Below, piece by piece: positions 3,220 to 51,118 of a stretch of 64,000 bases of DNA. The notes beneath the pieces are model-generated. The model did no database searches, was not told where the DNA came from, and saw nothing but the letters and a program-made list of their open reading frames with translations. The stretch covers positions 1,110,845 through 1,174,844 of the forward strand of contig CACVBU010000185.1 in NCBI GenBank assembly GCA_902728285.1. Reading direction: 5' to 3'. Each line of letters opens with the position of its first letter. The first letter of the stretch is position 1. The stretch is from Clytia hemisphaerica (Eukaryota > Cnidaria > Hydrozoa > Leptothecata > Clytiidae). The translations under genes and the position numbers were made by a program.

Positions 3220-3540
3220 AAAAATCAAAATATATATGTGAAGAATTAAGAATTTCTGTCCAACTATATTCACTCAGGAGATTTGGGTGGCAGAGCAGCA
3301 TATGCATTTCGTCCTTATTAGGACTCGTCAGCACTGCATACTGCACCTTGGCTGGCTAGATCGGTTTAGCCAGCATCTCTAAACCACAAAATCACTTGTG
3401 GTTCAAACTGAGAGAAATAGTGGACAGAAGGGAAATTCCCTACGGAATTCTTTGTTGACTCCTTTGGAGCCAAGCTTTACCGTCTCAAGAGGGAGGAAAG
3501 CCTCAACACTGCATGAGAGGAGATATATATATATTCTTAT
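3220..3540 (-). mobile_element. Hammerhead-bearing 3' tail of the PLE dimer
   Basis: This segment lies between the left 18-bp duplication and the pseudo-LTR at 3541-4085. Read on the minus strand it is the 3' extremity of the PLE dimer. It contains a hammerhead ribozyme, a hairpin ACCACAAAATCACTTGTGGT at about 3383, and a run of ATAT at its junction with the pseudo-LTR. The second pseudo-LTR (6713-7264) has no such tail. The segment probably joined by a template jump at the AT repeat. Confidence 0.5.
3286..3350 (-). ncRNA. Hammerhead ribozyme, type I
   Basis: On the minus strand the core reads CUGACGAG (3331-3324), a 4-bp stem II GUCC/GGAC closed by UAAUAA, then CGAAA (3311-3307). A very short stem III follows, with an AUA cleavage triplet ending at 3301. 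Stem I pairs GCAGUG (3337-3332) with UGCUGC (3300-3295). An outer helix GGUG...CACC lies beyond an internal loop, as needed for loop-loop contacts. All invariant core bases (CUGANGA, GAAA, NUH) are present. Hammerheads with a minimal stem III are known from Penelope-like retroelements, which fits the flanking elements. Self-cleavage is inferred. Confidence 0.8.
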
Positions 3541-4085
3541 ATATATATAGTCTAGAAGTATAAAACCTTCAACTACTCAAAATGGAAACAATAAAGACAA
3601 AAACCCACAAAACAAAAAGACAATACAAATACAACAAAAATCTAGAATGAACATTCACAGAAAATCAATCAGGTTGGAGTAGAAAAGGAAAATATGATGA
3701 CATAGAAATCCATCAATGTAAAACTAGTGATCTAAAATGACTTTAAGGAAGAAAGTAACTCAATATGAGTTAAGATGGAATGAAGTAACTCAATATGAGT
3801 CAAAAAATATATTTCAAGAAAACACATTATCTGTTCCTCAGTTTTCGACCTACACAGGATTTCGGCCTTTTACGAAAATATCCTCCTATATGATGGAAAT
3901 AGGGTTGTGTAGGTAGGCCAAGCAGTGTTAATTAAACACCACCACAGACAAAAGATAGTAAAAAGATGTGTTTATTGAAAGTATAAAACGCGCGCAATAA
4001 TATAAAACAAACTAAAACGCAAAAACCACGGAACCAGCCGAAGAAACTAAAATTACAATGAGAAAAGAAGTATACTTTCTACTAG
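3541..4085 (-). repeat. Pseudo-LTR copy A of the PLE
   Basis: About 545 bp, nearly identical in direct orientation to 6713-7264, flanking the full PLE ORF. Such pseudo-LTRs arise from the tandem arrangement of Penelope-like elements. The right end, TTTCTACTA followed by GACAAAGTTGCC, is the uninterrupted version of the site that the 15.4-kb element occupies at 7264 and 22669. It contains an imperfect inverted repeat (CCTACACA near 3850, TGTGTAGG near 3907). Confidence 0.8.
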
Positions 4086-4297
4086 ACAAAGTTGCCACAC
4101 CTTTGACACGTTTCTGCCACAACGTTGAAGAAAGCATACTAGAAGAGAAGGAACTGGGATTGGATTGCCACTATCCAACCCTGTGGCTCTCACACACATT
4201 TTACAGTTCAAAGAATAAGATGGAAAGAGCGGGGAAAGAATGAGAATTTAAAAAATCGGACTATAACCCGGTTCGAAGCCCCGTACACCGTGACCGC

Positions 4298-6697
4298 TCA
4301 CCGCAAGAGCTGGCGAACGAGTGAATCTTGAGAGAGTTGAAATCTTGAAAATTCTGAAAAATGACGAACTATAACCCGTCGAAGGCTGCAATCTAACTTT
4401 GCGTTTTCAGCACCTTGACATCGCATTCTTTGTATAAAAACTTTGGCTTTAACTTTCAAGTCCTCGAAAAGTAACGTAGAACGAGCAATCCTGAGAAGTT
4501 CACCAACAAAAGAAGAATAAAAAATCGATTCTGGCAAGTTGCTATCTTTATGTGGCATTCGGACTATGGAAAAAGGAAATGCATCCCGTTTATCAAACAA
4601 CTTATAAATAAATATCCCGTCTTTGATGGTAATATCCAGGTTTAAAAAAGAAGCATGATTACCCGAGTGCTCAATTTTGAGTTCAAGCTCATCTGGATAG
4701 ATATCTCTATACACAGACTGAAACAAGTTACCGTCATTGATAGCACACAAATCATCAATGAATCTTTTAGTCGAATGAAAATGGCGAGCCTTAACCTTAC
4801 TTTCCTCAATGACCCTGCTCATATACCTTTGTTCGTATTGGTAGAGGAAAAGATTAGCCCAAAATGGCGCCGGATCGATTCCCATGGGAATCCCGATCAC
4901 TTGACACATAACAATATCACCTGCATTGAAAAAACAATTTTTTATCAGATGTTTCATAGCAGTTTTCAAAGAATTCTGTGTAAAAGACACAGAAGATTTG
5001 GGTTTTGTTTTTGACCAATACGCTTTATCATTTTTAGAAATAGCGATAAACTTGCAGTTACCTGCATCAAATACAAAATCAATGACCTCTGATAGTTCTT
5101 TAATCAGTTTGTCATGAGGAATCTTTGTGTACAATGTACTAAAGTCAAAGGTGGAAATAGATTTGGCGTTTTTCTTTTTATTGATTCGGTTGAGTGAATC
5201 TAGTACTGGATCACAATTTTGAAGTACCCAAAATTTATTATAATTGCTCAAAAACTTTGCTTTTGTATGGAAATTTTCAACTTGTCTGTAAACAAGCTTA
5301 AAAACTAGACTGACAGATCTAGAAATCAGTTTGGTGGAACAATGTTTTGAAGCGATAATGAAACGTTTACCAGTAGGAGTCTTGTGTTTCTTTGGAGTCC
5401 AATAGATACATGGAAGATCCAAGTCCTTCTCAGAAACAGCAAGACCAAAACGTTTAGAAAAACGAACATTTTCATTCACCATTTCTGCTTTATTCTGATT
5501 AACTCTAATGTATGTTTCATTTCCTGCACCCAAAATCCCAATCTCCTTCAAAATTACTTCAACATAGAAACGTTTACAAATAAATGCAACGTTATTAGCA
5601 GCTTTATCAATGGGGACAATAACAAAATTAGTGTGTAAAACATTCAAATAATCAGTAACATCTTGTCTTTTGAGCACAGAGCTCACTTTATTGTACCTGA
5701 TCTTCTTTTTCAAAAACTTTATCTTTTTATCCACCTGTTTTAACACTTCAACTTTCCATTGAAGAAAGTTTTCGTCAGTCTCATTAATTTTGGCTGAAGT
5801 TTTATTCACAAAACTATCCAGACCACTAGAAATAACATCTCTGCATTTATTCCAATTGATATTTCGAGGTTCACGATAATTTGGTCCCTTGGATATCAAT
5901 TTTCGCAAATGGTTATTTTTAATGAAACTTAAATCTCCGGTCATGACATGACCATGGTCTAGATCAATAAAAGGAGAATCGTGACACTCACAAGATGGAA
6001 GGTTGGTGCCAAAAGTTTCTAAATCTGCTGTATTGATGGAATTTACAGTTTCTTTATAATTAAAGATTTTGTTTCTAATCGTAGGAGTTAAAGAGTAAAC
6101 AATCGATGGTGGATCTTTTTGAAGTATTTCAGGAAGTTTGGAATTCACACAAGGCTTGCGAAGAATATTTTTGAGCTGAATAAACTCAAGACCTTTATTG
6201 TGGAAATAAATAGGAAGGATGTGGGAAGGAGATTTTTTAACATTAGCTTTATCAATTTTCATAGTCTTCGTGAGAAAAGTATCGATCAATAATTCATACC
6301 ATCTTTTCAGATGACTTTCGCAAGAAAAAAGTGAAGTGCTAGCTTGTTCTGCAAGTTTTCGTAAATTTGACTGTCGAAGCCTATCAAACAAAATGCGACA
6401 TTTCTTGGAACGTTCTTCCGGAGAAAAAGAAAAAATGGAATGAACAAGAGAATCTAGATCAGAGATCCTAGCCTTAACTTTGGAGCGGTAACGGTGCTCA
6501 ACAAACTTAGTGCCATGTCTGGGAAGAGGTGGAAATAATTTCCCAGCCGGAATGTCCTTGTTCATAGATTTTACTCGCTCATTCAAACCATATGGATAAA
6601 TAGATCGTAAAGTTTTTATCCAATGATCTTCTCTTTCTAGTCGAAGTTTTAACATTGCAGGATCAATTTTCCCATTTAAATAACCATCACCAGGCAA
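4298..6697 (-). CDS. Penelope-like retroelement reverse transcriptase, unit 1
   Basis: An open frame of 799 codons without a stop. Reverse-transcriptase motifs appear in order: a DKAANN box near residue 362, motif A FDFSTLYTKIPHDKL near 516, motif B GIPMGIDPAPFWANLF near 606 and motif C FIDD near 647. N-terminal marks are HWIKTLRSIYPYGLNER near residue 25 and HVMTGDL near 250. In related PLEs the first of these, from memory, follows an N-terminal GIY-YIG domain, so a 5' endonuclease part may be missing. No C-terminal GIY-YIG is present. The frame opens at a TTG and continues upstream into the pseudo-LTR without an ATG; the first in-frame ATG is about residue 15, so the true start is unclear. 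The element would copy its RNA into DNA during insertion. Unit 2 lies at 22.7-24.5 kb. Confidence 0.85.
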   Translation of the reverse strand: MPGDGYLNGKIDPAMLKLRLEREDHWIKTLRSIYPYGLNERVKSMNKDIPAGKLFPPLPRHGTKFVEHRYRSKVKARISDLDSLVHSIFSFSPEERSKKCRILFDRLRQSNLRKLAEQASTSLFSCESHLKRWYELLIDTFLTKTMKIDKANVKKSPSHILPIYFHNKGLEFIQLKNILRKPCVNSKLPEILQKDPPSIVYSLTPTIRNKIFNYKETVNSINTADLETFGTNLPSCECHDSPFIDLDHGHVMTGDLSFIKNNHLRKLISKGPNYREPRNINWNKCRDVISSGLDSFVNKTSAKINETDENFLQWKVEVLKQVDKKIKFLKKKIRYNKVSSVLKRQDVTDYLNVLHTNFVIVPIDKAANNVAFICKRFYVEVILKEIGILGAGNETYIRVNQNKAEMVNENVRFSKRFGLAVSEKDLDLPCIYWTPKKHKTPTGKRFIIASKHCSTKLISRSVSLVFKLVYRQVENFHTKAKFLSNYNKFWVLQNCDPVLDSLNRINKKKNAKSISTFDFSTLYTKIPHDKLIKELSEVIDFVFDAGNCKFIAISKNDKAYWSKTKPKSSVSFTQNSLKTAMKHLIKNCFFNAGDIVMCQVIGIPMGIDPAPFWANLFLYQYEQRYMSRVIEESKVKARHFHSTKRFIDDLCAINDGNLFQSVYRDIYPDELELKIEHSGNHASFLNLDITIKDGIFIYKLFDKRDAFPFSIVRMPHKDSNLPESIFYSSFVGELLRIARSTLLFEDLKVKAKVFIQRMRCQGAENAKLDCSLRRVIVRHFSEFSRFQLSQDSLVRQLLR

Positions 6698-6712
6698 AAG
6701 TTCAAGAATCTT

Positions 6713-7264
6713 AGAATATATATAGTCTAGAAGTATAAAACCTTCAACTACTCAAAATGGAAACAATAAATACAAAAACCCACAAAACAAAAAGACAATA
6801 CAAATACAACAAAAATCTAGAATGAACATTCACAGAAAATCAATCAGGTTGGAGTAGAAAAGGAAAATATGATGACATAGAAATCCGTCAATGTAAAACT
6901 AGTGATCTCAAATGACTTTAAGGAAGAAAGTAACTCAATATGAGTTAAGATGGAATGAAGTAACTCAATATGAGTCAAAAAATATTTCAAGAAAACACAT
7001 TATCTGTTCCTCAGTTTTCGACCTACACAGGATTTCGGCCATTTGTGAAAATATCTTCCTATATGATGGAAATAGGGTTGTGTAGGTAGGCCAAGCAGTG
7101 TTAATTAGACACCACCACAGATAAAAGATAGTAAAAAGATAGTAAAAAGATGTGTTTATTGAAAGTATAAAACGCGCGCAATAATATAAAATAAACTAAA
7201 ACGTAACACGGAACCAGCCGAAGAAACTAAAATTACAATGAGAAAAGAAGTATACTTTCTACTA
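6713..7264 (-). repeat. Pseudo-LTR copy B of the PLE
   Basis: Direct repeat of 3541-4085 with few changes, for example an extra AGTAAAAAGAT unit near 7135. It sits between the two PLE ORF copies of the dimer. Its right end is cut by the 15.4-kb TIR element after TTTCTACTA. Confidence 0.8.
7263..7264 (+). repeat. TA target-site duplication, left copy
   Basis: The uninterrupted sister site at 4082-4090 reads ...CTACTAGACAAAG. Here the flank ends ...CTACTA, and at the other end of the element (22669) the flank begins TAGACAAAG. Removing the element and one TA restores the empty site exactly. Confidence 0.75.
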
Positions 7265-7281
7265 CTCGACGTGTTGAAGGT
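7265..7281 (+). repeat. Left terminal inverted repeat of the 15.4-kb element
   Basis: CTCGACGTGTTGAAGGT, matching the reverse complement of 22652-22668 at 16 of 17 positions. Similarity stops immediately inside the repeat. Confidence 0.75.
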
Positions 7282-8976
7282 AAAGATTTTTGGCTACGGG
7301 GGAGTGTGTTTCAAAAAATTACAGTAGAAGCCGTACGATGGAGAGTTTCCCGGTTCTTGGTCAGTCTTACTAAAGTTTCCGTCTTAAAAGTTCGACTTTC
7401 GCCAGTAATATTTTTCTTAGTGCGTGTGGGTAAGTAAGTGGGTCAGCAATTTTTATTTTCATGGCTATAGCCGTAATATGTAAAGTACCATGAATTACAT
7501 GCCACTTTTTGAACGAAAATCACATTGGTTCTGGAATTGATGGAGAAAGCCCAAGGAAGGAACCAGAAAATGTTTCTTTGGTTTTGCTCCCAAGCTCCGA
7601 AGAGATCTCGAATCGTAAGTATTTCTATTCTACCCCCTATTTATTTCTTTGAGAAAAACTGCATTCTTGCTTGTGTATTCTAACTAGAAATTTATCCCTG
7701 GGGAAATTTAATGGGATTGATATTTTGTAAAAAAGCAAGGACTGGATGGAGCTTCACTGTCACCATTTAAATGTATGTCCTGTCCTGTTTGAGGAAGAAA
7801 TCTTGTTAAAACATGAACAAAACATCATTGCTAATCCCCCAAAAGTGTAAATACTCCTTTGAGAGTCTATGAACCCAATTTTTCAAAAGGTTTAGCTAGC
7901 TTAAAAAATAGTCCCTGTCACTTTTAAAAACTTTTGTCCTGCTATCATCAGTTGCCTGTCAACTATCATTTTCAGTTTTATTTTTTCTTATCTCATTTCA
8001 AATTGAAATTGCTTTTTCTCTTATTCGAGTAATTCATCTTAGCATAAAGTTGTTTGGCATAACCCAATGGGTCTTGAGGGTGGTAGTGCCAAAACGGTGA
8101 AAACAATCATCCAACAGGCAGTAGGAACAGCAGGCGAGTTAGTTGCCATGCTAGTTACGTCACCAACTCCAGTGCAAAACAAACATTGTTTCATTGAATA
8201 TCAGTTATAAGAATATCCTATGTATATACTTAACTTCATTCAGTAGACTTTGGGTGCTTCATTGAAAGTTCTTTCTACTGTCGCAGAAAGTTTAACAGTT
8301 GTTTACGAGAACACAACGATCTATTGAATAACAAATTACTCCACATTACTTTTCCTCTGCCAGTAAAAGCGTGATAAATTTTCTTGTCTCTAGGTAACTA
8401 ACTGCTGTGGAGTAATTAGTTTTTCAAAAGACTATTGCATTCTCCAAAACCACTATTAAAGGCACAGTCTGCTTATACTTACTATGTCTTGCTATATGAT
8501 CAATAAGCAAAGAAAAATATCAACCTTTCTACCAATTTCAGCTGATAAAAAGGGTGTCGGATTTAGATGAGGGATGTCGACATTAGATCAAGTTACGGTA
8601 GTCTTGTTTTGCTATTATGGTCTAACCAAAAAAAAAACATTTAAAAAAAGATACAAACATAATTTTATATGAGTTCTGTTATTTTTTTATTGCAGCTGTG
8701 TACAGAAATTGCCAGTACAAACAGAATAAATTATCTTGTTCAATTGATTATTGAAACAATATGATATTGATAAACAAAATACATAGTTTATCATATTTTA
8801 ATAAATAGAAGAAATTGCATAGGTAAAATATTGATATACAATACAATTCAAAAAGTTCTAGGAAGGTATATATATCCTTAAAATTTGGACGAAAATATTA
8901 CAAATACAAATATTATTTCTATTTGATTATAACTCGTTAATGTATGAAAAAAGGAAATATTTCAGCATAACAATTA
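7282..8976. other. Left non-coding arm of the 15.4-kb element
   Basis: I see no gene. No frame shows family motifs. It probably contains sequence downstream of the minus-strand gene. Confidence 0.4.
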
Positions 8977-9185
8977 CAGGCTGCATCATTTGAAAATTTC
9001 AGGCGTGTGGTCAATCACACTCCTAAAACCTTAATTTTAGTAATTTAGGCGTGTGATAAGGAGTGCTATGCACAACTTTCAGTTGTGAAACTTACTTTAT
9101 GGGGTGTGATTGATCGCACTCCTCAGACATTTTATGTGTGTGGAGGTGTGCGCGTGCTATCGCTCGCCTCAAATGATGCAGCCTG
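8977..9185. mobile_element. MITE with 17-bp TIRs and CAATTA duplication
   Basis: The ends are CAGGCTGCATCATTTGA and its reverse complement TCAAATGATGCAGCCTG. CAATTA is duplicated on both sides (8971-8976 and 9186-9191). Inside, GTGTGGTCAATCACACTCC (about 9005) and the GTGTGATTGATCGCACTCC region (about 9105) add further pairing. It is 209 bp, non-coding, and younger than the element it sits in. Confidence 0.75.
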
Positions 9186-9815
9186 CAATTAATTAAAATC
9201 TTACGAAATAATTGAATAAATGACATTCCCTGATTTTTATATATTCACTGAAACTCCTTTTTTTTCACTATAACTCAATTTGTTTTTTTACGAAGAATCT
9301 TGATTTTTCAAAACAGTTTAACCGTCAACCAAATCTAATATCAAAGATTCTTAGTAAAAACTAAAGTTAAAGATTCTTAGCATAACAAAAACCAAGATTC
9401 TTTGTAAAAAAAGAGTCCTTGACCCTTGTGGGCCACAGTATATTTAAAGTCTTTCAAAATTTTGATATTGCTATATGAAGTCTTTGTCTGAAGATACTGA
9501 AATGTCTATTGCATAAAGAAACTAAATTTGGAATAAATAAAAATACTAGAAAATATATATTATGAATTATTATTGTTACTGTTATAATTTTGTTTTTTGG
9601 GCAAAAACGCTGAGTTATTTTTCAAACATTTAGACACCGCTGCTTGGCTATGGATTAGATGCAAACGTAACCCCTTTTTAAAACGTTATATAAATTTTCC
9701 CTTTCCTAAAATGCTCAGAAAGTATCATGATGAACCACTGAAAAGAAATCCCAATAAAGATTTTTTAGCCATTCATCATGTCATTGAAATTGAAATTTAG
9801 AAAAATATAGTAATT

Positions 9816-12800
9816 TTAATACCCCTTGCTTGGGTCTTCAAGACAAAAGGTTTTTTGAAGTTTTTTGCAAAGAGCAAGTTCTCTCTTAGCTTTCGTGTAT
9901 AAAGACATGGAATCTTCATTCACAACATTTACAATCTCTGAACTTGCCAAAGCTGTTTTTTCAAGCTCATTTAGCATTTTCCATGACTCGTCAAATTTCA
10001 CTTGAAGTGGCACACCAATTTTTGCTACCAACAGTTTCATTTCCTTTGAGTAGAAAGACTCGTTCAATTGAAATTTAGCTTTCATATTTTGATATTCAAT
10101 GTCAAAATTTGAATCAGGTAATAGTGATTTCAAAACAACAGCTGTGTTGCTTTTTGCAACTTGAAGTTGGGCGGACTCTGAAGATCTTCTACTCTGCTTT
10201 TTATCTCCTACCCACTGAAAATCGATTGGAGCCACTTGTTTCTTTCTCCTTTGGAGTGGTGTTTTTGGTTGACTTGTGTCATGTTTTGATGTTGCTGGGG
10301 TTGATTGTAGAAATGGAGATGTAGGGACAGGTGAAGTGATTGATAATTTTTGCAAAAAAGGTGTTGTTGATGTTGAATCCTTAGTGCTAAAATAAAAAGA
10401 TTTCATTACTCAAAGAATTGCTTTTTACAATTTTAGCCGATTAAAGTTGATCCCTAAGAAATCAAGTAGTATTTTTTGAAGCTATTAATATATACATATC
10501 AAGTCTTACTTTTGTACAGGGGTTGAAAGTAGTTCATTGATTTCCAAAACTGAAGAATTGATTGAGGGAAGTGCAATTGAGCTAAAATTCAAAATAAATA
10601 TGATAATTGAAAATTAAAGAACTTATTACAATCTTTCAATAAAATTCAACTTTATTTTGTCTAATATAGAAACTTGAGTATAAAATACAACATGGCACAA
10701 ATCAAGTATCTTAATATGATAAACATAAGGACAAAGCAATTACCTTGATTCTAAAGAAATGCTTGAACTATTCTGACTGTTCGTCTGACTGTCCATAATA
10801 TCCACATCCATCTGTGCCACTTTCTCTGTTGAGCTAAACATATTTAAATGTTTAAAACAATATGTTGCTAATCATAAAAAAAGCAAATACAATGCAAGGT
10901 GCAATGCAAGGTGCAAGATTATTTTAAAAGAAAACGTTGGTATTACCAAAATGGTCTTTTCAGATTCATAAGGGATAAGAAAAGTTACCTTGATTCTAAA
11001 GCAATTATTGATTCATTCTGATTGTCTTGCTGCCCATTCAATTTGCCATCCATATAGATATCCTCTTGTGTTGAGCTAAATAGATTTTGTTTAAAAAAAT
11101 TTTTATCCTGTTTGACTTGCTGGTGTTTGAAAAAAGTTTCAATACGTTATATAAAAAACATTTTGTCATTTCGAAAAGTTTGTTGGGAAAGGAAAAAAGA
11201 ATTTTAAAGAATTATTACCTGGATGCCAAATTCAGGAATGATTCATTTTGACTGTCTGCCTTTGGTGTGTCATTCAGGCTAAAATTATTTTGTTTTTTTA
11301 TTGTTATTGTTACCTTAATCATGATTTAAATCAAACTGAGATTTCTATAAAACAGACAATGTTAACAGAGTGTACTACGAAGCGATAAACATGGCTTCTG
11401 AAAACAACATAAAAGAAATATTATACCTCAGTTCCAAAGCATCAATTGATTCGTTTTGGTCTTCCACTGTGAGATTTATTGGTGTGACATCTTGAATTGA
11501 GCTAAAATAATTACAGTAGAATAAATCAATTATACCACAATGTCTTTAAATTCAAATAGTTGAGCTGTGTAAAATCTGTCAACTAGAAATAATTATTGTG
11601 ATATATCCATTCTATGATTTATGTATGATTTCTCGCAGTAATAGATTGACTTAAAAAAATACTTCAATCAGTAACATCCAATATTGCCTGACTTAGAGCT
11701 AGGAAACAATTCGCCCTTACTTGACTTTCTGGATTAAAGGAATAGGGCGATTGTTATTTGTGGAAAACTTCTGAAGCGTGCCAATGGTTGTTCGTTTCCC
11801 CTCACTATCAATAATAGTATTGGCTGGTATCAACTTCGGACTGGTTAGGCACTTGGTCCAGCATTTGGAAACGTATGCCAGTTCTTCTTCAAGCGTGAAG
11901 TTTCGAAAATGATGTCTCTGCTTCATCCAGTCTCCAGAAACATCATAAAACTTGACACCAGTTTCCACCTCCTTCCACACTTTTGACTCCAATAGGTAGT
12001 CTCCAATTCTTTCCAGGCAAGCTTGGTACTCTCGTGGATAATTTTTGATCGTTTGGTAAGGAATAATGGTATCCTCACTTTCAAAATAGCTTGCCAACTT
12101 TGAGATCTTTGATTCTACTTGTGGAACCGTCATCAATTCTTGAAACTCTGATCTGAATTCTGTTGTTGCCTAAAGAGAAAATAAGTCCAATCTGTCATCT
12201 TTCGTTTTATTTAAGATAAAGTACTTTCATATTATTTCAGGGTATCCCAATGGTCGTTTATATCTTTAATAGAGAGGCATAAAGCTTAAATATCAGAAAC
12301 TTCCCTTACTTGTAATCGGATTATACAGTTGACAAGAACATTCTCAGGATGGTGGTTCGATGTTAGGGAACTTGCAGTTTTCATGAAATTGAATTGTCGC
12401 TCTTCATTTTCAACATTTGTTGACGAGAGAGACACAATCCTTAGTTGCTGCGGTGCATGTATGATTAGAGCATGATGATATTGGCCAAACATCTTCCTTA
12501 CTGTTAATTTCTTCGTTTTCAGGAACAGACGTTTAAACTCCAATGCATGGACAAACGTGAGGATGTGCAACCTTAATATTGCTTTTGATGTACGGTGTTC
12601 TTCATTTGAGTAGACAATACCTTGTATCTCAACCAGAGTTGTGAAAAGAAGATGATAACTGGGTAGAAAGTTTTTTGTCAACATGAAGATTGTCATCTCT
12701 AAAAGTGATAATCTGTAATCACAGCCTCTTTTTGCCTCTTTTGAAGAGAATGTAGCTTTCATTACCCGTTGAAACCTAAGTTTTGCCTCATCCTTAAGGT

Positions 12801-15800
12801 GGTATTGTATTTCATTATAAATGTTTTTAATATGGCCAGCCATCGTATGTAGACCTTCAAGAGGTAGCACTTCATATCTTGGAACAGCAGTTTTACATTC
12901 TTTAAGATTTCCGTGAAGCAAAGCTGGGAAACATTGTTTGCCTTTGACCGTTTCGGCGAAAATCTTGTCAATTTGTTTTTTGGTTTTGTTCGTGAGTTGG
13001 TCTTTGTTCTGAAATATTAAAATGGTTTGTATTTTCCACACATCTTTTTCTTTTTAGGAACAATTCAAATAATACTTTCTATATGCTATTTAGAAGTATT
13101 TTCTTATTGGTCTTTGTAACTTTCCAAATTTACAAGGGTCTTAAATTTCCGAGGACTCTTCTAGGAATGGCTTTATCGTATTTTTCTGCTCCAAATGTAT
13201 CATTCCCTCTAGCTTTTGACCTACCTTTCTTTGATGGAGCTCTGAAATCATGCCTTCTCTATCAAGATCAGCGTAAAAGTTTGTTCTGCCATTCTCAGCA
13301 CCTATTCGACCTGCTGTTGTTTGTAACATATCAGTGATTCTCGAATTGAGAGAGACATGTTTAGTATTGAGTGAATGTGCAAGGTCGTATGTTCTTTCCC
13401 CATCCACTTCGCACGCCCAACAAAAATACCTTCCTCCTTTCTGGTGTCCGGACTCAAGCTGACAAGCAGGGCCGTCTCCTATAAGATAATAATTAATTTA
13501 AATCTTGAGAGCCTTTCTGTTTGCTGTAACTTGTATTATCATAAAAACAGCTTTCTATAATTTTTTTATTTCTTTTTTAGGATGAAATCGTCGTTTACCT
13601 TTGAAAAATCGCACTTGGTCATGTATTGGAACTTTGTTTATCTGGATTGGGGATGCCTCACATTTTTTAATGTCATCCAATCGAATCTCGCTGTACAGTA
13701 ATTGGTTCTTATCTGCCGTGCATCGCGCCAACATGTACGTCTCTGGTCGCTCCACTGTTTCTTGGACATCGACCTTTAATCCTATGATTATGAAATAATA
13801 ATTTCACAAACGAGACCTTACGACAATTTTATAACGCATGTTTATCGTACAGTGTTAATGTTTTGTTTGTTTGATTGCATCCACAAAAAGTCTAGTATCA
13901 CATGTTATTACCTGTCCTTTGGAAATATTCCTCATCCGTCAAGAAAATGGCTGGGTCGTACAGCGTGTTGAATGTTACGAGGAAGTGAGACGCGCTCGAG
14001 ACGGATGACGAGTCGTGCCAACATACAAGTGTTCTGACCCTCTGGTACTTCTTTAAACGCACTGCCTCGTTCGGTGATTTTGGGTCGTAATTTTCGAGGA
14101 GCCGATCAAATTCATCACTTAACTCCTGCTCGCCAATCGTTTCGTAATATTCATCGGATTTAATCCTGAGGAAATCTTCCTGTTTATTGAACATTGTCTG
14201 GCGGACTTCTTGTAGTGTAAACATTCTTCCTGTAAAATTTGTGTTTTTTTTAATTAACCTTTATTATATAAATATAACTATAAGACAATTTCATTAGAAC
14301 TAGAAGCGGGAACAATTCAGTTCATCAATTTTACCTGACCTTACATATTCGACTAATATTTGGCTTTTAGGTCAGCATGAATATACCCCTGACAAGGCAA
14401 ATTTTGTAGGTTTTTCACTACCCGCCCGGACACTATATACTCCATCCCCCCATGTGCGGACATTTTCTGGAAGAGTCCATTCTCATACTGAGAGTTTAGA
14501 TTAGGTTTTACCCTCAGTGGTATACTGTGTGATCGTTGGTTCTCCTTTGTCATCCATTACCAGTTTTTCATAAGTCTGTGGAACAATAGGCTTTCCCAAT
14601 GAATACTTTCCCTGATAAAAAAAATAGAATTCGTAAATTAAGTATTTTTGTTTAAAGATGTTTTTAATCAATAAGTTTCGTGGATATAATTGATTTTGCA
14701 CTTGCTTAATCACGAAATTCAATCTCTCATGAAACTTAATAACTCTCTAATTGTCAATAAACAATTTTTGCTAAACAATTAAGATTAAAGCTTGTCCCTT
14801 GGTCACTTTCTCTGAATTGTTCTAAAAATATATATAACGACTTTAATCGGAGGCCTAAACAAAACTTTGAAATACTTCTTTGACTTCTTCTGCTAACTGT
14901 TTTTTTAATTCAAACGTTGATATTTCCATCGGCACAGATATGTTTGTTTTGAGAATCCTGAAAAAAAATAGAACAAGTTTTCTCCACCAACTTTAAAAAT
15001 ATTTAGATTCCATAGTTACCTTAGTTTAAGGTTTCTCAGTTGAAACTCGAGAATGATATTGATTTAAAAAAAGGCCAAAAATACGCACCTTCTTTTTTTC
15101 TTCCGAATCCGCAATCTTTTCCGTTCAGTTTGGCCACCGAACCGATCAAGATCAACTTTGGAAACTTGAAGGAAGTTGGAAATGATTTGTCCCCCGTTTT
15201 CGGGGACATTGCCGTTTTTGTGTTTTATTTTGAAATTAATTGCGATCTGCCTCATTATTGGTGGCTTGTCATTGGGAAGGCTTTCTACGAACTTTATAAC
15301 GCCGTCTCTATCGAATACGTAGTTGTCCAAATTACCAACATGATTTGATGGCTTCGCTAAGCCCTGTGCTTCTTTTTCTTTCCTCTGTATTGTTCGCAAT
15401 TTTGCTTCCTATGAAATGTTAAATTTAATTTTAAAATATAAATTATTTTTATAATTCTAGCCACCGCTTTTTTGAAAATTGCATGGTTACCTTAAAAGGC
15501 TCAAGTGCTTGTACTTTTCTCTTCCGATTTCTTGATGTTGTTGACTCCATTGTTCCATAGGCCCTTTAGAAAAAATTGTATTAAATTTCAATTTCTAACT
15601 AAAGCAAATTCATTTTTCAAGTCTTCTGTTGTGGTAGATCAGCCCTACGAAACAGAGGCGACTCTCTTAGTCTTTTAGTTTTTTACTGAAAACCTGATAG
15701 AAATCTAACTTAATAATAACCTAATAATAATCTAACCGTTCTTCTTAAGGATTTTAATACCTGACAACAGCGGTTTCTTTCCACTGTTCCTGAATGTTCT

Positions 15801-16356
15801 CTTTGACCTCTTGAGCAACTGTTGACCATCTTTTCTGCACAGTGGATTTGTCCGCCATCTTCAAAGCATTTTCAAAAGTTACTGAAAACTGTTCTTTGTA
15901 TTTACCGTTCAATACATTAATATCACGCTTTGTCTCGTCAATGATGTTATGCCTTGCTGGTCGAAACAGTCCATTCTCTGTTGCTATTTTGTGCCATTCT
16001 GCCGAATTGATTGGAACATACGATAAGGGTAACCGGTATTTGTCATTGTTTAAACACCCTTTACAAAGACTCAAATTTCCGTGCTTTTTCTTTGCACCCT
16101 CTAACAATGAAGCCCATTTTTCTTGGCAAAAGGTTTCTATGAATAGCGACTTTTTGGCACAATCAGCCTTATTTAGTTTTGAAATATTTTCTCTCACTTT
16201 ACCAGCCCGATTTTTATAGCTAGATTCACTGATTGTCAAATGAGGGAATACCCTCTTCAACTGCTTGTATTGTGCAGAGAGAGTTTCCGAACCTGTCAGC
16301 TGCTCATATATCATACATTTTATGAATCCACAGCAAAGTGGATGATTTACTGACAT
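9816..16356 (-). CDS. 16-exon gene of the TIR element, candidate novel transposase (1,342 aa)
   Basis: Exons (minus strand): 16356-15761, 15563-15491, 15408-15089, 14957-14876, 14611-14512, 14229-13912, 13781-13599, 13478-13225, 13008-12310, 12169-11721, 11501-11427, 11278-11219, 11075-10989, 10833-10744, 10581-10510, 10386-9816. Every junction is GT-AG, all phases agree, and there is no internal stop. Total coding length is 4,029 nt. The start is a true ATG just after an acceptor-like TTTTTTAG, so a 5' UTR exon is likely. Conserved-looking blocks are WHDSS (D463), GDGPACQLE (D559) followed by a CxxC at 577/580, LHTMAGH (695-701), RGCDYRLS (about 736), HAPQQLR (826-832) and NVENEERQFN (E842-E845). 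D463, D559 and an acid at 842-845 could form a DDE triad with a large insertion, as in RNase H-fold transposases. That is inference. Residues about 1025-1152 come from five short tandem exons. The tail is basic and Ser/Thr-rich. Confidence 0.8.
10510..11501 (-). repeat. Series of five short phase-2 symmetric exons
   Basis: The exons are 75, 60, 87, 90 and 72 bp (11501-11427, 11278-11219, 11075-10989, 10833-10744, 10581-10510). All start in phase 2 after TTTTAG, mostly with CTCAA. The first four end with a similar block, for example QNESIDALELS, QNESFLNLASS, QNESIIALESS and QNSSSISLESS. The shared ends and phase show that one exon was duplicated several times. The encoded stretch is low-complexity, acidic and Ser-rich, like a flexible linker between the core and the C-terminal domain. 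Confidence 0.7.
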
Positions 16357-19300
16357 TTTTTTCTAAAAAATACAAAAATAATGTATTACACAACTAAGCA
16401 GAGTTCATACGCCCATTCATAAAGCCCTTTCTTTTTCGACCTACCTTATTACATTCAGACAACTACTAAGTCAGTTAACGCCAATAGTCAATACACCTTT
16501 TTGACCGTAGCCACCAATTGCTGCACTGGCATTTTTTGTCCGCCTCGCGCATCCCGCACTAAAACTGTCCCATTCCTTTTTTCGCACCAATAGACATTAA
16601 TAGAAAAATGCGTCAAAAAGGATTGGGACGGTTTTAAGTGGGATAAAGCGGACAAAAAATACCCGCACGAACTACGGTTATTTGGCACCCAACCAAGATG
16701 GTGAAATTTTCATCCAACACGCTAGAGCTCTGAAAGTCGGGAAAATTTTCAACATTTGGAAAGTTTACTATTTACGTATTTTAGCGAGACCGCGTCAAGA
16801 ATTTTGCAGCGGGAGGTCTGGTAACCCAGCAGTTACAATGACCCGTTTCTTTAGAGCTTTAGCGTGGGCGGCCGCCAATCTGCCATCGGAATATCAGATA
16901 AGTGTATCGGTTACAACAAAAATCGCGTCGAATTAGATGTTCACGTATATTATTTATCCTACCTTGATTACTGGCCCCCGGGGGAGGGCTGCAAGGTGAC
17001 GCAGGTAAGTCGGAGTCGAAGTTTGAAAATCGATCCTTTGAGAGACTATTCTCTATTTAATAATTTTGGGACCCTTTCAGAGACTCAATTGCTAATTTAT
17101 CGCGTTAAAGAAAACCTCGGTTTATAATTTCATCCACTCTTAATTTATATAATATATGGAAATGACCAAGAAACGTACCGTTAGCTACAGTATGTTAAAC
17201 CATTAAAAAGTCCGCTCAGCAATATCAAATCACTTTTACGAGCACTGCATAGTTTTGAGATTTAACTAACCGGGTCGATTTGATACTTGAGTGAACTTTT
17301 TATAGTTGACCGTAACTGCGGTTTGTTTCATACTTGAATCAGACTCAGGCTAATTAGATAATGTAAGAAATTTAAAACGGTGATACAAATGCCGCCTCTA
17401 GTCTTAAAGAATTCAGCGTCTGAAATGAAAATCTTTGGGCGTAGAGGAAAGCTTAAATGTAAAAGCTAATTTCTACGCCCAATAAGAACAAAAAGTGCAA
17501 AATTTCATCCATATATAGGAGTGACAGTCAAAGTGTGAAGTTGAAAGAAGTATCGAGTTGAAACACAACCACAATTATCTTTTATTTATAATGGAAAGAA
17601 AAAGTTCTAAGATTATCTTTGAGGTTGTTTGGGATTTTTAGAAAATGACTCGCTTAGCCAGAACAATTTCATTTAAAAATAATAAAGCGGGAGTTTGTCT
17701 AAAAGCAATTTGATCTTCAGATTTAGACCTTGGTATTAATTTTTGAAAATTACCGTACTTGCATTTAACAATCCAAAAGTTCATCTGAATACATTTCCGT
17801 CAAGAGTCAAAATTTCCCAATAACTCAAGACATGAACCGAGCTAACCAGCTAAAAAAGACGAGAGCCACACGAATTCTTTCTCGGATAAAGCGCCAGCAT
17901 GGTTTTGCCTTTTTTTAAAAGTGGCTGTACGCAAAATTATCTGAATTTCTTAGTTAGTGTTATAGGTAAGTACGGTATAAGGCGGCTAAAAAAATATTTT
18001 TTTAATAAGAGTGACTAGTTAATCGATTTTAATTTACAAGCTTTTTGATAATGAATTGACACGGATGAGAAGCAAGATAGGTCAGAAAGAATAAAAGGAA
18101 AACACTTTTTGCTTATATCAGCACAATACAACAATAGGCAGACACTGTCCTGAGATAGAACATGTGTCCGATATGAAACGGGAACACTTGTGTAACATGT
18201 AAAAGTAAAAACTTTTAAAATTTTTTGAAATTAGCGGGATAACTTTCAAAACAAATTGAATACATTTCATTTTGATCCATTTTTTAATACATTTTTAATA
18301 AATACTAGAGCTATAAATTACGCTATAGTGGTCTATAAATGTTACAAAAAATTACTAGTACGGATAGTGAGGCCTAACAACAAGTTTTTTATTGCAAGAG
18401 TATAAAATTCTTCAACATTTAGCTAATTTTTACGGGATTAAATTTTACGAGCCTGAAATAAACTTTACTTGGTTAACGATTTAACTCACGATAATCTATG
18501 CGAAAAAAAAACTATATTAGGCAAAAACACTACATTCCGGAAACACTACATTTTTTCTTTTTCGCCTTATCAGCATATAAAAGATGTCCGATGTGCTATT
18601 CAAGATTTCGTTAAACATTTTTAAAAGCATAAGAACCACTTGTGACAGGTTTGACGAATAAAATACTTTAAAAGTTAAAACAAAAATATTCTCCGATTTG
18701 TCCGATAAAATTAAACCCTATTTTGACCATCCAACAGAAGGTAGACCATACAATTCCGATGCAATTCAAAATTTCGTAGCAAATGTCTAAAATGGTGATA
18801 TCCAGGTTTCAGACGGAACAACGATGCGAAAATATTTTCCACTACACTATATCATCCACTACAGTTTTCGACCACGTACCATTTATCCGTATTCGAATGC
18901 AAATTCGAACTGTTCTTGAGAAAAAAATTCATTATACACCCCACGACTGCGATTTGAATTCTTCTTTGTCGGATTCCATCATTCGTTTTACGATACTAGA
19001 AAATATAGAATAAATTACATTATAACACGATATTAATAGGATAAAAATACCAACCCAGGGAAAAAAGGACGCTGAAAAATAAGGACAATTTTCACTGGAC
19101 AAAAAGAAGAAAAACTTTGCTAATCTTCGCTTAACAAAGCTTTAAAATCGTCCACTCAATTTTTTCTTTCCAAAGAGGTAAAAATTTCACTTTACGGAAT
19201 GAAAGGTATATTAGAGCAATTTCGAAATCCCAAGAAAAGATGTAGCAGCCTTCAATAAGAAAGAGTCAACTAACAGTAAATAACTTTCTGTGCTGAATAT

Positions 19301-19779
19301 ATGAATGAAGTCCCACTGGAAGTTACACTATATAAGAAAATTACCTTTGCTTTTGGAAGTTACACTAAAGAAAATTACCTTTGCTTTTCATGTCAATTTT
19401 GCATAAAACTAGCTATAACATCCCTAATTTCTATCAGTTTTAGACACATTAAAAAAAGGTAAAAATTTATACTTTCCCTTACTGTATTATGTATTCTTAC
19501 TCTACATGACTACTACTAGTACTAGTCCTACCATTATTGATAGCATTGGGAACTACATCATACTGCTTTTTTATCTAATTTAATTTTAAAACAAAAAACA
19601 TTGAAGGAAATCATTATTTGAAAACACCGGCAAGTAAAGTTTCAAATTTTAAAATTGCCTAAAAAGAGGAAATTCTAGCCTGAACAGCCTGAAACAGCCC
19701 AAAATTAATTTTGCAAGGTTTTGTGATTGTGTAAAAGATAATAGATGGCTACTACCAAATCATTTTTTGTCAAAATCTC
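16357..19779. other. Upstream non-coding arm of the 15.4-kb element
   Basis: No gene is supported. It should hold the promoter and 5' UTR of the minus-strand gene. About 16.5-17.0 kb is richer in GC and CpG than its surroundings (GGGCGGCCGCC at about 16866), which would fit a promoter. A strong plus-strand donor-like site (GCAG/GTAAGT) occurs at about 17006, but I see no gene around it. An 11-bp inverted repeat (TTGGGCGTAGA/TCTACGCCCAA) lies at about 17433-17483. Confidence 0.35.
16529..16661. repeat. Hairpin element, MITE-like
   Basis: ATTTTTTGTCCGC at the left is mirrored by GCGGACAAAAAAT at the right. Inside, ACTGTCCCATTCCTTTTT pairs with AAAAAGGATTGGGACGGT. The whole 133 bp can fold as one imperfect hairpin. 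I could not define a clear target duplication. Confidence 0.5.
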
Positions 19780-21010
19780 TAAATTAGGTAAAGCTAGCCA
19801 TTTAAGACCATTGCTTTTCTTTTCTGTGACCAAGAACCATTAGAATATTAATTAATTTGATCAAATCTTTTAACAAATTGTAATGAATGTATCAAAAAAA
19901 TTCAAAATTATGGAAGACCAGCCATTAAAAAGTAATCATTTTGCAAAATCTTCAAAAAAAAGCTAAAATAGACATCAAATAAAATTGGTAGTGCCATCAC
20001 TTAAAGGACGATCCTAGTAACCTGTGTGAACAAGAACCACCATGTTATTTGAACAAAATTCTCCAAAAAATTTGAAATTACGTAAAGCTAGCCATCGAAA
20101 TGACCATGCCTATTCTAGCCACCTTAGTGACCATGAACCACTACGTTATTTGAAAAAAAAAACATTTGAGCAAAACTCTATGAAAAATTGTAACAAAATT
20201 CTCCAAAAAAATTGAAATTACGTAAAGCTAGCCATCGAAGTGACCATGCCTATTCTAGCCACCTTAGTGACCATGAACCACTACGTTATTTGAAAAAAAA
20301 AAACAGTAACAAAATTCTCCAAAAAAATTGAAATTACGTAAAGCTAGCCATCGAAATGACCATGCCTATTCTAGCCACCTTAGTGACCATGAACCACTAC
20401 CTTATTTGAAGAAAAAAAACATTTGAGCAAAACTCTATGAAAAATTGTAACAAAATTATCCAAAAAAATTGAAATTACGTAAAGCTAGCCATCGAAATGA
20501 CCATGCCTATTCCAGCCACCTTAGTGACCATGAACCACTACGTTATTTGAAAAAAAAACATTTGAGCAAAACTCTATGAAAAATTGTAACAAAATTCTCC
20601 AAAAAAAATTGAAATTACGTAAAGCTAGCCGTCGAAATGACCATGTCTATTCTAGCCACCTTAGTGACCATGAAGCACTACGTTATTTGAAAAAAAAAAC
20701 ATTTGAGCAAATCTATTCTCTGTGAAAAATTGTAACAAAATTTAAAAAAAAAAGTGAAATTATGTACTCTCTGATACCTAATAAGCGCCCCAGCTAATTA
20801 ATTTTTTCACCCAGGATATACTTATTTCAACCCCTCTGCTCATTAATTTTTGGAAAAATGTTTTTGAAAGTTCCCTCTTTTGCCCTAATTCTGCTGTATA
20901 AGCCTTCTTTTTACAAATTTTACATTTAGGAATTCCCACTTATTCCAACCCCCAGCGATTTGGTAGTACACGAGAGAGTACGCTAGCCATCGTTATGACC
21001 ATACCTTTTC
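19780..21010. repeat. Minisatellite, unit about 115-145 bp
   Basis: The unit begins AAAGCTAGCCATCGAAATG and contains CCATGCCTATTCTAGCC, TTAGTGACCATGAACC, ACTACGTTATTTG and an A-rich tract. Well-conserved copies start near 20083, 20223, 20338, 20482 and 20623. Older, diverged copies precede them from about 19780, and one follows at about 20980. One unit lacks the ACATTTGAGCAAAACTC segment. It is interrupted at about 20764-20972. Confidence 0.8.
20764..20972. mobile_element. Small insertion in the minisatellite
   Basis: The unit breaks at GAAATTATGTAC and resumes at GTACGCTAGCC. The intruding 200 bp begins GTACTCTCT and ends AGAGAGTAC, a short TIR. It contains no reading frame of note. It is MITE-like; the superfamily is unknown. 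Confidence 0.5.
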
Positions 21011-22651
21011 TAGCCAACTGTAACCAATATTATCATATCATTGAAAATAATGAAACACTCCAGCCACTAACTTCAACATCAATATAATGACAAAAAATAA
21101 CAACCCTATCAGATGTGCACTGGATTGGAAACAGAAAAAGTCACGTGCAAAACTAAATTATACACTTTCAGACTTTGGCGTCATCCATATAGCATTCACA
21201 ATAAAAGTTTTTTGCCATGATATTATCATAAATAGATATCCCCCTTTTGTTGAACGCAAGAAACAATAGAAATGTTGTCATTTAAACAAATGAATGTACT
21301 TTTGCTTAACCCCCCTCTACCCCTCAGTATGTAGTACTAAATGGATGGCCCCTTGGTCAGTGTTAAGACTAATATTTTACCGTGATGTACCATTTTTACA
21401 CGCACTCGCTCTGTATGTTGTATCCAGTGCATTTTGGGGATACCTGGCCTGCCTCTTTGGCACAACAGCACAAGACTGTCAAGTACAGATGTCTAGACAG
21501 AGTTGTAGTATGAATATCATATCACTACTATACTTGAAAAAGAAGCAAAAATATATAAAAATTTGTCTCAAAATTTCCCACTACAAAAATACTCTAAATA
21601 AATATATAGGCACTTGTTGTGCCTGTATGTCTACTTTCATTTTGTTTGAAGACTAACTTTGGTATATTTTATCAAAAAGTCTAGGCTTGTTAAAACTATA
21701 TACAATATCTTAGAGTCTTCTCTAATGACTTTGTCAGATAAGAGCTGATGAAAATATAATTTGTTTAGCTAGATTAGAACAACCAAAAAAGTTAAAATTT
21801 TTACCCCTTTTATCCACAATTAAAGTACTTTTGTTTCCAAAATAGGAGCCATTCATACTATCAATCAACTTATCTTAACATTTCCATTAAAAATCATCAG
21901 TCAGCTGATTGGCAAAGCAACTACAAGAAAAGATAGGAAAATACTAACTTCTTGTTGCTTCTTTCTGCCGCCTCCAAAAAGTAAAATGAAAAATTTTGCA
22001 TATAGCGACGGCGCGAAAAATAGAATTTCAGATTTCAGCCAATCAGATTGCGCGGTTTCGTTCTTATTCGGCTGGAATTAACGGTCTGTAAAATTAACGA
22101 AAACGACGAATTTCTTTGAATGAATGGGTGGCCTATCTTATAAAGCGATTGCTAATGAAGGCAGTTACCTAGAATTTTTTTTCTTTCTTTCTTCTGAAAA
22201 AGGGATAAATTCCTGACCGGAATGACCCCCGTGATAGTATGCGGAAATAAGCGGAAACTGTTTAAAAAGTCGGAAATAGCTAGGAGACGGGGGTAAAAAC
22301 AATTAAAATCTTATTTTAAATCAAAAATAAAATGAGATAGATAACCGTAACGGGGGTGATTCTGATGTCTAATCGATATACCTATTTGGTAAAACAATAA
22401 AAAACAATCTTTTTCGCTGCCTTAACTAGCAATCTCAAAAACTTTGATTTAATCCGGTAACACCTCCTATGCGGTTTTTACGGCTGCGAGGATTATTCTC
22501 TGGTTTAAGAGAAGTTGAAATAGCCTCAAATGGTATCTGAGTTTCAGATTATAACTGAACTTCAAAAGGAAAATACTGTAACGTTGCAATTTAAGAGATT
22601 TGCATGGCTTCTTGCAAAGGATCGCTAAAAAGCCCTATTTTAATGACCATC
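21011..22651. other. Right non-coding arm of the 15.4-kb element
   Basis: I see nothing coding. The longest frame (21294-21656) has no family features and ends in low-complexity Lys-rich sequence. Confidence 0.4.
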
Positions 22652-22668
22652 ACCTTCAACCCGTCGAG
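22652..22668 (-). repeat. Right terminal inverted repeat of the 15.4-kb element
   Basis: ACCTTCAACCCGTCGAG on the plus strand, inverted match to 7265-7281. It is followed by TA (22669-22670) and then directly by PLE sequence GACAAAGTTGCC. Confidence 0.75.
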
Positions 22669-22670
22669 TA

Positions 22671-24524
22671 GACAAAGTTGCCACACCTTTGACACGTTTC
22701 TGCCACAACGTTGAAGAAAGCATACTAGAAGAGAAGGAACTGGGATTGGATTGCCACTATCCAACCCTGTGGCTCTCACACACATTTTACAGTTCAAAGA
22801 ATAAGATGGAAAGAGTGGGGAAAGAATGAGAATTTAAAAAATCGGACTATAACCCGGTTCGAAGCCCCGTACACCGTGACCGCTCACCGCAAGAGCTGGC
22901 GAACGAGTGAATCTTGAGAGAGTTGAAATCTTGAAAATTCTGAAAAATGACGAACTATAACCCGTCGAAGACTGCAATCTAACTTTGCGTTTTCAGCTCC
23001 TTGACATCGCATTCTTTGTATAAAAACTTTGGCTTTAACTTTCAAGTCCTCGAAAAGTAACGTAGAACGAGCAATCCTGAGAAGTTCACCAACAAAAGAA
23101 GAATAAAAAATCGATTCTGGCAAGTTGCTATCTTTATGTGGCATTCGGACTATGGAAAAAGGAAATGCATCCCGTTTATCAAACAACTTATAAATAAATA
23201 TCCCGTCTTTGATGGTAATATCCAGGTTTAAAAAAGAAGCATGATTACCAGAGTGCTCAATTTTGAGTTCAAGCTCATCTGGATAGATATCTCTATACAC
23301 GCTGAACAAGTTACCGTCATTGATCGCACACAAATCATCAATGAATCTTTTAGTCGAATGAAAATGGCGAGCCTTAACCTTATTTTCCTCAATGATCCTG
23401 CTCATATACCTTGTTCGTATTGGTAGAGGAAAAGATTAGCCCAAAATGGCGCCGGATCGATGATTCCATGGGAATCCCGATCACTTGACACATAACAATA
23501 TCACCTGCATTGAAAAAACAATTTTTTTATCAGATGTTTCATAGCAGTTTTCAAAGAATTCTGTGTAAAAGACACAGAAGATTTGGGTTTTGTTTTTGAC
23601 CAATACGCTTTATCATTTTTAGAAATAGCGATAAACTTGCAGTTACCTGCATCAAATACAAAATCAATGACCTCTGATAGTTCTTTATCAGTTTGTCATG
23701 AGGAATCTTTGTGTACAATGTACTAAAGTCAAAGGTGGAAATAGATTTGGCGTTTTTCTTTTTATTGATTCGGTTGAGTGAATCTAGTACTGGATCACAA
23801 TTTGAAGTACCCAAAATTTATTATAATTGCTCAAAAACTTTGCTTTCGTATGGAAATTTTCAACTTGTCTGTAAACAAGCTTAAAAACTAGACTGACAGA
23901 TCTAGAAATCAGTTTGGTGGAACAAGTTTTGAAGCGATAATGAACGTTTACCAGTAGGAGTCTTGTGTTTCTTTGGAGTCCAATAGATACATGGAAGATC
24001 CAAGTCCTTCTCAGAAACAGCAAGACCAAAACGTTTAGAAAAACGAACATTTTCATTCACCATTCCTGCTTTATTCTGATTAACTCTAATGTATGTTTCA
24101 TTTCCTGCACCCAAAATCCCAATCTCCTTCAAAATTACTTCAACATAGAAACGTTTACAAATAAATGCAACGTTATTAGCAGCTTTATCAATGGGGACAA
24201 TAACAAAATTAGTGTGTAAAACATTCAAATAATCAATAACATCTTGTCTTTTGAGCACAGAGCTCACTTTATTGTACCTGATCTTCTTTTTCAAAAATTT
24301 TATCTTTTTATCCACCTGTTTTAACACTTCAACTTTCCATTGAAGAAAGTTTTCGTCAGTCTCATTAATTTTGGCTGAAGTTTTATTCACAAAACTATCC
24401 AGACCACTAGAAATAACATCTCTGCATTTATTCCAATTGATATTTCGAGGTTCACGATAATTTGGTCCCTTGGATATCAATTTTCGCAAATGATTATTTT
24501 TAATGAAACTTAAATCTCCGGTCA
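22671..24524 (-). mobile_element. PLE unit 2: 3' UTR and 5'-truncated reverse transcriptase
   Basis: 22671-22883 matches the 3' UTR of unit 1 (4086-4297), and 22884-24524 matches its ORF from residue about 250 (HVMTGDL) to the end. Compared with unit 1 it has several single-base indels (near 23305, 23420, 23690, 23805 and 23930) that split the frame, so it is not functional. It is truncated at HVMTGDL, then enters an AT repeat (24525-24580) and the right 18-bp duplication. With pseudo-LTR B and unit 1 it forms a head-to-tail dimer once the 15.4-kb element is removed. Confidence 0.8.
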
Positions 24525-24589
24525 TGATATGATATATATATAGTATGAAAATAAAATGTTTATATATATATTCTTTTTCACCGTCCAAC

Positions 24590-48178: not shown

Positions 48179-48449
48179 AACCATTACCAGCTGATAACTT
48201 CAAATAAAAGAGTACGAAAGAGATTTCGAATAGTGAATTCATTATCATAATCTTGATCAGAAAATTGACAACGAATTGATGTTTGATAAAATATCTATAT
48301 TTCGAGCATAACTTCACTCATCTTTCAGGATTGTAAAATGTAAAATTACAAAGTTGCTACTAATGTGAAAAATTGGGAAAAAAAATGCGCTAATTGAAGG
48401 CTATTAAAATTGTAAAATGGTTAAAAGACAAGGTCGTAATAAAAAGTAG

Positions 48450-51106: not shown

Positions 51107-51118
51107 ACGAGTCTCAAA
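51107..51118 (+). repeat. 12-bp direct repeat, right TSD of the inverted PLE pair
   Basis: ACGAGTCTCAAA, identical to 48167-48178. Confidence 0.65.

Follow-up and report, generated by a model that had tools for sequence, protein, structure and literature searches.

Here we report that a 64,000-nt stretch of Clytia hemisphaerica DNA (contig CACVBU010000185.1; hereafter the window) harbors a 15.4-kb element bounded by terminal inverted repeats (TIRs) and TA duplications, whose 16-exon gene with high probability encodes its own transposase, predicted to have the fold of RAG1 and Transib, and which likely represents a separate TA-targeting lineage of the CMCT clade. Judging from modeled structures of related proteins, the element is probably a branch of the RAG1 enzyme family so far undescribed in animals; the literature searched (titles and openings of abstracts) describes no animal element of such a kind.

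The element spans positions 7265 to 22668 (15,404 bp), as delimited by its inverted ends, the flanking TA dinucleotides and comparison with an empty site (Table 1). Both the 17-bp inverted ends and the TA duplication proposed in the initial annotation were borne out. The termini read 5'-CT..AG-3' (CTCGACG...GTTGAAGG ends). Exact matches to the pattern CTCGACGNGTTGAAGG occur twice in the window, at the two ends of the element; with up to 3 mismatches there are 4 matches, versus a mean of 0.59 in shuffled sequences, and none of 100 shuffles reached 4. When the window was compared with itself by blastn, window positions 3535-4084, in the sister unit, matched the left flank (6709-7264) at 94.7% and positions 4083-5951 matched the right flank (22669-24532) at 98.7%. 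Once the flanks of the element are joined, 119 of 122 bases agree with the empty site. This site, in which TA is present once, shows that the element inserted after the two flanking units had split from each other. Sub-terminal repeats were also considered and dropped, the signal being too weak: apart from the TIRs, the 300-bp stretches at the two ends have 15 7-mers in common (mean in simple shuffles, 7.4), a number reached in 8 of 200 shuffles.

Table 1. Features of the element and of its target site (window coordinates).
Feature	Position	Strand	Basis or remarks
Left TIR	7265..7281	+	CTCGACGtGTTGAAGGT / CTCGACGTGTTGAAGGT; 16/17 identical to right TIR
Right TIR	22652..22668	-	CTCGACGgGTTGAAGGT (reverse complement) / CTCGACGGGTTGAAGGT; 16/17 identical to left TIR
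Left target-site duplication TA	7263..7264	.	single TA at empty site
Right target-site duplication TA	22669..22670	.	blastn of window against itself; joined-flank comparison
Empty target site TA, sister unit	4083..4084	.	blastn of window against itself; TA present once
Minisatellite	20052..20766	+	rows with periods of 116-257 bp; non-coding part upstream of gene
Predicted transposase gene, 16 exons	9816..16356	-	CDS 4029 nt, 1342 aa; exon-wise alignment to relatives
Exon 1	15761..16356	-	C...KHxL..C..C pattern common to relatives; possibly zinc-binding
Exon 2	15491..15563	-	gene model
Exon 3	15089..15408	-	INFSxLAR..GQVVKEFL-like stretch in relatives; putatively helix-turn-helix-like, by eye
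Exon 4	14876..14957	-	GTATTT donor
Exon 5	14512..14611	-	gene model
Exon 6	13912..14229	-	D463 (WHD), codon 14012-14014 (derived from exon table)
Exon 7	13599..13781	-	gene model
Exon 8	13225..13478	-	D559 (GDGP), codon 13474-13476; C577, C580
Exon 9	12310..13008	-	H696, H821, H826, E842 (codon 12409-12411)
Exon 10	11721..12169	-	gene model and relative alignment
Exon 11	11427..11501	-	first of five short exons
Exon 12	11219..11278	-	gene model
Exon 13	10989..11075	-	gene model
Exon 14	10744..10833	-	gene model
Exon 15	10510..10581	-	gene model
Exon 16	9816..10386	-	C-terminal region, partly common to relatives; stop 9816-9818

The 16-exon structure proposed initially, with its coding length, fits the sequence: all 15 introns (82-282 nt) have GT-AG borders, and the reading frame is open, the last codon being its sole stop. 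An alternative exon 4 donor, GTTTAG, which gives a CDS of 4044 nt and 1347 residues, was rejected in favor of GTATTT, 15 nt upstream, because the five additional residues are missing from the aligned relatives. The Pfam search of the window protein, the conservation counts and the exon-wise alignment used all or part of the 1347-residue version, in which residue numbers run 5 higher after residue 357; part of this version is also the first row of alignment A1. A C...H...C..C pattern at the N-terminus is common to the relatives, and the five short exons from exon 11 onwards have little or no match in the seven relatives compared. The four other open reading frames (ORFs) of at least 110 aa in the element, none of them an exon, gave no Pfam match, a search that a split gene could escape.

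We found 45 relatives of the window protein, which their sources name only "uncharacterized" or "hypothetical". The initial annotation described such proteins as common in cnidarian and sponge proteomes; two of the 45 bear an organism name, both cnidarian, and no sponge name was seen. No Pfam transposase family was matched, either by the window protein at E-values as high as 10 or by the 45 relatives at up to 0.01. A third profile search (E up to 10) returned only the protein's own family, the weakest match having an E-value of 1.2e-46; this is weak evidence, since scoring was confined to the 7991 candidates with the most words in common, and of the 15 proteins that made up the query alignment 12 did not reappear in the list. 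By tblastn, none of 38 pattern stretches in viral contigs and none of 27 in GTDB genomes encodes a relative. A second member of the family is present in the window itself (30745-31296 and 31937-32100); we treat it as a relic because its first two catalytic motifs were not found on the + strand between 24.6 and 36.5 kb, and a search restricted to exact 10-mers next to TA recognized no pair of ends around it.

Conservation within this family points to D463, D559 and E842 as the likely catalytic triad of an RNase H-fold transposase. The corresponding columns hold D in 32 of 32, D in 38 of 40 and E in 40 of 41 family members, respectively. The initial annotation had named the same two aspartates and left the third acid between E842 and E845; all four residues are as stated and conserved (E845 in 39/41), but we prefer E842 since it lies six residues before a conserved F (39/41), as does E962 in RAG1. 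C577 and C580 form a C(2)C motif (C in 39/39 in both columns; C(1)C in the three relatives P0007, P0012 and P0015), and H821 and H826 an H(4)H motif (40/41 and 41/41). These four residues constitute a probable zinc site. H696 (H in 42/43) seems to correspond to the third H in Figure 4 of PMC12730594.

The comparison with RNase H-fold transposases suggested at the outset showed that the predicted cores of two relatives resemble RAG1/Transib. In the fold searches RAG1/Transib ranked first, with the P element and hAT (Hermes) at lower Z, a ranking that does not in itself exclude families unlisted in the structural search, such as Tc1/mariner; the viral structure library gave no match at E<=0.001. 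At the sequence level no similarity to RAG1 was detectable (one mouse sequence as counterpart; hhalign probabilities of 0.5 and 1.0), and the case for kinship is built on the predicted fold and the order of the residues; in phmmer, mouse RAG1 itself reaches HzTransib at just E 0.007. The predicted fold of the relatives, together with the full residue signature in the window protein, argues that the gene is very likely the element's own transposase, as first proposed. Judged by this predicted fold, the protein is not, as had been supposed, of an unnamed kind; it also carries the residues given for the CMCT clade, C(2)C together with H(4)H.

Groups of the CMCT clade have in common the residues C(2)C plus H(3-4)H, target-site duplications of 2-5 bp and mostly, not always, 5'-CA..TG-3' termini (Kojima 2025, PMC12730594). 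The element combines a D-D-E triad, C(2)C, H(4)H and a duplication within that size range with CT..AG termini in place of CA..TG. It is conceivable, if somewhat doubtful, that it is an animal branch of a lineage already named, be it fungal ESTA, Chapaev, Mirage, EnSpm or Lanisha. ESTA has TA duplications and a transposase that is RAG1-like by HHpred (PMC12730594), and so the earlier statement, by which such a protein and a TA duplication occur together in no known group, was too strong; Chapaev is reported from the lancelet and the starlet sea anemone (PMC4411706), and the signature residues are common to all these groups. Against this, ESTA is described from rust fungi, the main text of PMC12730594 does not mention cnidaria, the clade's usual termini are missing from the element, and the third profile search, for what its limited candidate set is worth, returned no other family. 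Whether the element is the type member of a new superfamily-level lineage of large, multi-exon animal DNA transposons, with a transposase that is a sister of RAG1/Transib by fold but has lost all detectable sequence likeness, a SAP-like insert in the catalytic domain and a 2-bp TA target in place of the 5-bp one of RAG and Transib, is evenly balanced; the insert refers to a weak SAP-like match in one relative, within the C580-H696 span. The CTCGACG ends, such a protein and an animal host may, taken jointly, be undescribed.

It is improbable that the element was moved by a foreign transposase, for instance of the Tc1/mariner superfamily, with the gene as cargo or captured. Tc1/mariner elements characteristically duplicate TA, and since one copy with such ends was seen, gene and ends are linked by position alone. 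However, the relatives have a predicted transposase fold, the gene carries the full residue signature, and the four other ORFs lack Pfam matches. Genes of the Tc1/mariner superfamily are short and have few introns, if any. At the above thresholds, neither the window protein nor its relatives contained a Tc1/mariner Pfam domain. That the gene is instead a domesticated RAG-like host gene, with the inverted ends as leftovers, is very unlikely: its length and many exons, conserved N-terminus and short extra exons look gene-like, and domesticated RAG-like genes are reported in sea urchins (PMC9885083), but the empty site marks an insertion that postdates the separation of the flanking units, and the large clusters of some relatives (33 member sequences for P0007) would fit a repeat, or else redundant assemblies.

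RAG1 and Transib close flanking DNA into hairpins. For an element that carries its own transposase, we propose that N-terminal parts of the protein would pair both CTCGACG...GTTGAAGG ends, that the RNase H core, with its triad and putative C577/C580/H821/H826 zinc site, would nick each end, and that flanking DNA would be closed into hairpins in the RAG1/Transib manner. The freed 3' ends would then be joined to TA with a 2-bp stagger, and repair would yield the TA duplication.

RAG1, the enzyme behind antibody diversity, is transposon-derived, and the CACTA-Mirage-Chapaev-Transib (CMCT) group comprises its wider kin. An animal relative that seems intact and combines this predicted fold with another target size would provide an outgroup for RAG/Transib evolution, helping to trace how the zinc site, the choice of target and the recognition of ends arose. 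A family of 45 unlabelled relatives without a Pfam transposase model would also gain a role, and the open gene and known empty site make the element amenable to direct testing of transposition.

Among known systems, hAT and P elements generate 8-bp duplications, as opposed to the 2-bp TA of the element, and neither the window protein nor the 45 relatives matched KDZ (Zisupton, Dileera, Kyakuja), compared through Pfam models alone. EnSpm/CACTA has CAC..GTG ends and a 3-bp duplication (PMC12730594), whereas the element has CTC..GAG ends. With EnSpm/CACTA, Mirage, Chapaev (which has an N-terminal Chapa zinc domain; PMC4411706), Plavaka and Lanisha it shares the clade signature and duplication range, and differs from them in its termini and in lacking a Pfam transposase match. 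Transib and RAG-like elements almost always produce 5-bp duplications and have ends resembling the CAC-type RSS heptamer (PMC7204232), in contrast to the TA and CTCGACG found here, although the RAG1 core fold is shared, as predicted from the relatives. The C580-H696 span covers 116 residues versus 65 in Transib/RAG1 (about 50 more), and a partner gene like the RAG2-like gene of RAGL is not apparent by Pfam among the four non-exon ORFs, where a split gene could go unseen. ESTA, some copies of which carry a TET/JBP gene (PMC12730594), differs by its fungal host from this cnidarian element, whose ends read CTCGAC and whose gene has 16 exons; compared by description only, the two have in common the TA duplication and a resemblance to RAG1, detected there by HHpred and here through the predicted fold.

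The inverted ends, TA duplication and empty site on which the initial annotation had placed the element were all recovered in the window. The terminal inverted repeats, CTCGACGTGTTGAAGGT and CTCGACGGGTTGAAGGT, are identical at 16 of 17 positions, and the 16-base end pattern, searched with zero mismatches, had no further match in the window beyond the element's two ends. Self-comparison of the window paired both flanks with the sister copy of the flanking unit, and the empty site agreed with the joined element flanks at 119 of 122 bases, evidence that comes from one insertion in one genome window. The initial annotation identified the flanking unit as a Penelope-like element; the reverse transcriptase domain of its open reading frame (ORF) was recognized by Pfam at a score short of the curated cut-off (E 4.8e-06).

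Features of the window, in window coordinates
Feature	Position	Strand	Observation
Empty site	4083-4084		Single TA
Element	7265-22668	
Self-match, first flank	3535-4084 and 6709-7264		94.7% identity
Self-match, second flank	4083-5951 and 22669-24532		98.7% identity; break falls at TA
ORF of flanking unit	4301-6751		Reverse transcriptase domain
Inverted-repeat unit in 3' part of element	8972-9190		22-nt arms, 95% complementary; looks like a nested MITE
Predicted transposase gene	16356 to 9816	-	16 exons
Exons 11-15	10510-11501	-	60-90 nt each, all entered in phase 2
Divergent second member of transposase family	30745-31296 and 31937-32100, perhaps extending to 35817	+	Apparently a relic
TNP-like GTP-binding insertion domain (Pfam)	45451-45876	-	E 1.6e-07
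Inverted 1.4-kb copies of one ORF	48205-49591 and 49721-51107		98.8% identity
0.79-kb inverted repeat	59510-60296 and 61493-62279		97.1% identity
Reverse transcriptase ORF near 0.79-kb repeat	62884-63930		

The proposed reading frame of 4029 nt likewise held: it encodes 1342 residues with a single, terminal stop, and its 15 introns (82-282 nt) are all bounded by GT-AG. Because an acceptor-like ttttag lies directly upstream of exon 1, an additional 5' untranslated exon is possible. In the alignment of the window protein with its 45 relatives, the relative P0017 showed 18-43% identity per exon across exons 1-10 and 20% identity over 157 residues of the exon 16 product, and the short exons 11-15 were matched barely or not at all by P0017 and the six other relatives compared exon by exon. 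By BLASTP, P0017 aligned with residues 1-999 (33% identity) and P0031, from Hydractinia symbiolongicarpus, with residues 1-885 (34%). By eye, the products of exons 11-15 partly repeat a Q-N-x-S...L-E-S-type pattern, and these exons look like duplications.

A set of 5.8 billion proteins, searched three times, yielded 7, 14 and 33 matches and 45 distinct proteins in all. Two of these carry an organism name: P0031 and P0002, the latter from Clytia hemisphaerica. The public gene model of P0002 joins the transposase to a reverse transcriptase (PF00078), probably through an annotation merger; the window also holds a stretch of reverse transcriptase sequence 42% identical to one in the Clytia protein record. 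This stretch and the two named relatives point to a likely cnidarian host. With E up to 10 for the window protein and up to 0.01 for the relatives, no Pfam transposase model gave a match; SAP and the T4 endonuclease VII dimerisation domain were the only families to recur among the relatives (2/45 each). In the relative P0011 both matches are weak (E 0.047 and 0.081) and lie after C(2)C, ahead of the conserved H that follows it. The weakest match of the third search, run with E up to 10, stood at 1.2e-46, and the profile therefore met no other transposase family among the 7991 candidates scored, namely those sharing most words, in a search that did not relist 12 of the 15 query-alignment proteins. 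For this limited candidate set, the result is consistent with the Repbase criterion for a separate superfamily, that transposases fail to converge in iterated searches, as set out in part of PMC4455052.

RAG1 residues D600, D708, C727, C730, H795, H937, H942 and E962 have likely counterparts in D463, D559, C577, C580, H696, H821, H826 and E842 of the window protein, a pairing based on order and context rather than on a printed structural alignment. For RAG1 numbering we used 9jpu, a full-length chain (query 1-408 = 600-1007), with residue letters checked; the roles of the eight residues in RAG1 we take to be as generally understood. In the window protein the successive spacings are 96, 18, 3, 116, 125, 5 and 16; the corresponding series for RAG1 is 108, 19, 3, 65, 142, 5 and 20. 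All eight residues are kept in 24 of the 26 proteins (among 46) that have a letter at every column, including the window protein; the exceptions are P0031 (first H to R) and the relative P0035 (second H to Y). Sequence similarity to RAG1, represented by a single mouse sequence, was undetectable by hhalign (probabilities 0.5 and 1.0, the second run with 35 of the 46 rows).

The relatives also conserve an N-terminal C...KHxL..C..C pattern and a stretch resembling a helix-turn-helix, and these parts may bind the element ends. By analogy with RAG1 and Transib, the predicted RNase H core would then nick the DNA, form hairpins on the flanks and finally join the element to a TA target. Extra DNA contacts may come from the C580-H696 insert, which in a few relatives is weakly SAP-like.

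Elsewhere in the window, the second family member shows 25-36% identity in its main stretch, with best E values to the relatives P0015 and P0012; its first two catalytic motifs were looked for on the + strand between 24.6 and 36.5 kb and were not found. The TNP-like domain suggests a fragment of a P element/THAP9-like transposase, and the duplicated ORF, by eye, looks like the reverse transcriptase of a Penelope-like element and has a tail resembling GIY-YIG.

As for known groups, the window protein carries the residues that define the CACTA/EnSpm-Mirage-Chapaev-Transib (CMCT) clade in Kojima 2025 (PMC12730594); the element's target duplication also has a fitting length, whereas its termini differ. 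Transib and RAG-like transposons, whose hosts include cnidarians, duplicate 5 bp of target and carry ends of the CAC type (PMC7204232, PMC9435367), and a Transib or RAG-like identity was therefore rejected. A TA duplication combined with a RAG1-like transposase is also seen in the ESTA group, although PMC12730594 describes that group from fungi. On these grounds we call the element a likely separate, TA-targeting lineage of the RAG1/Transib/CACTA clade, probably with a cnidarian host.
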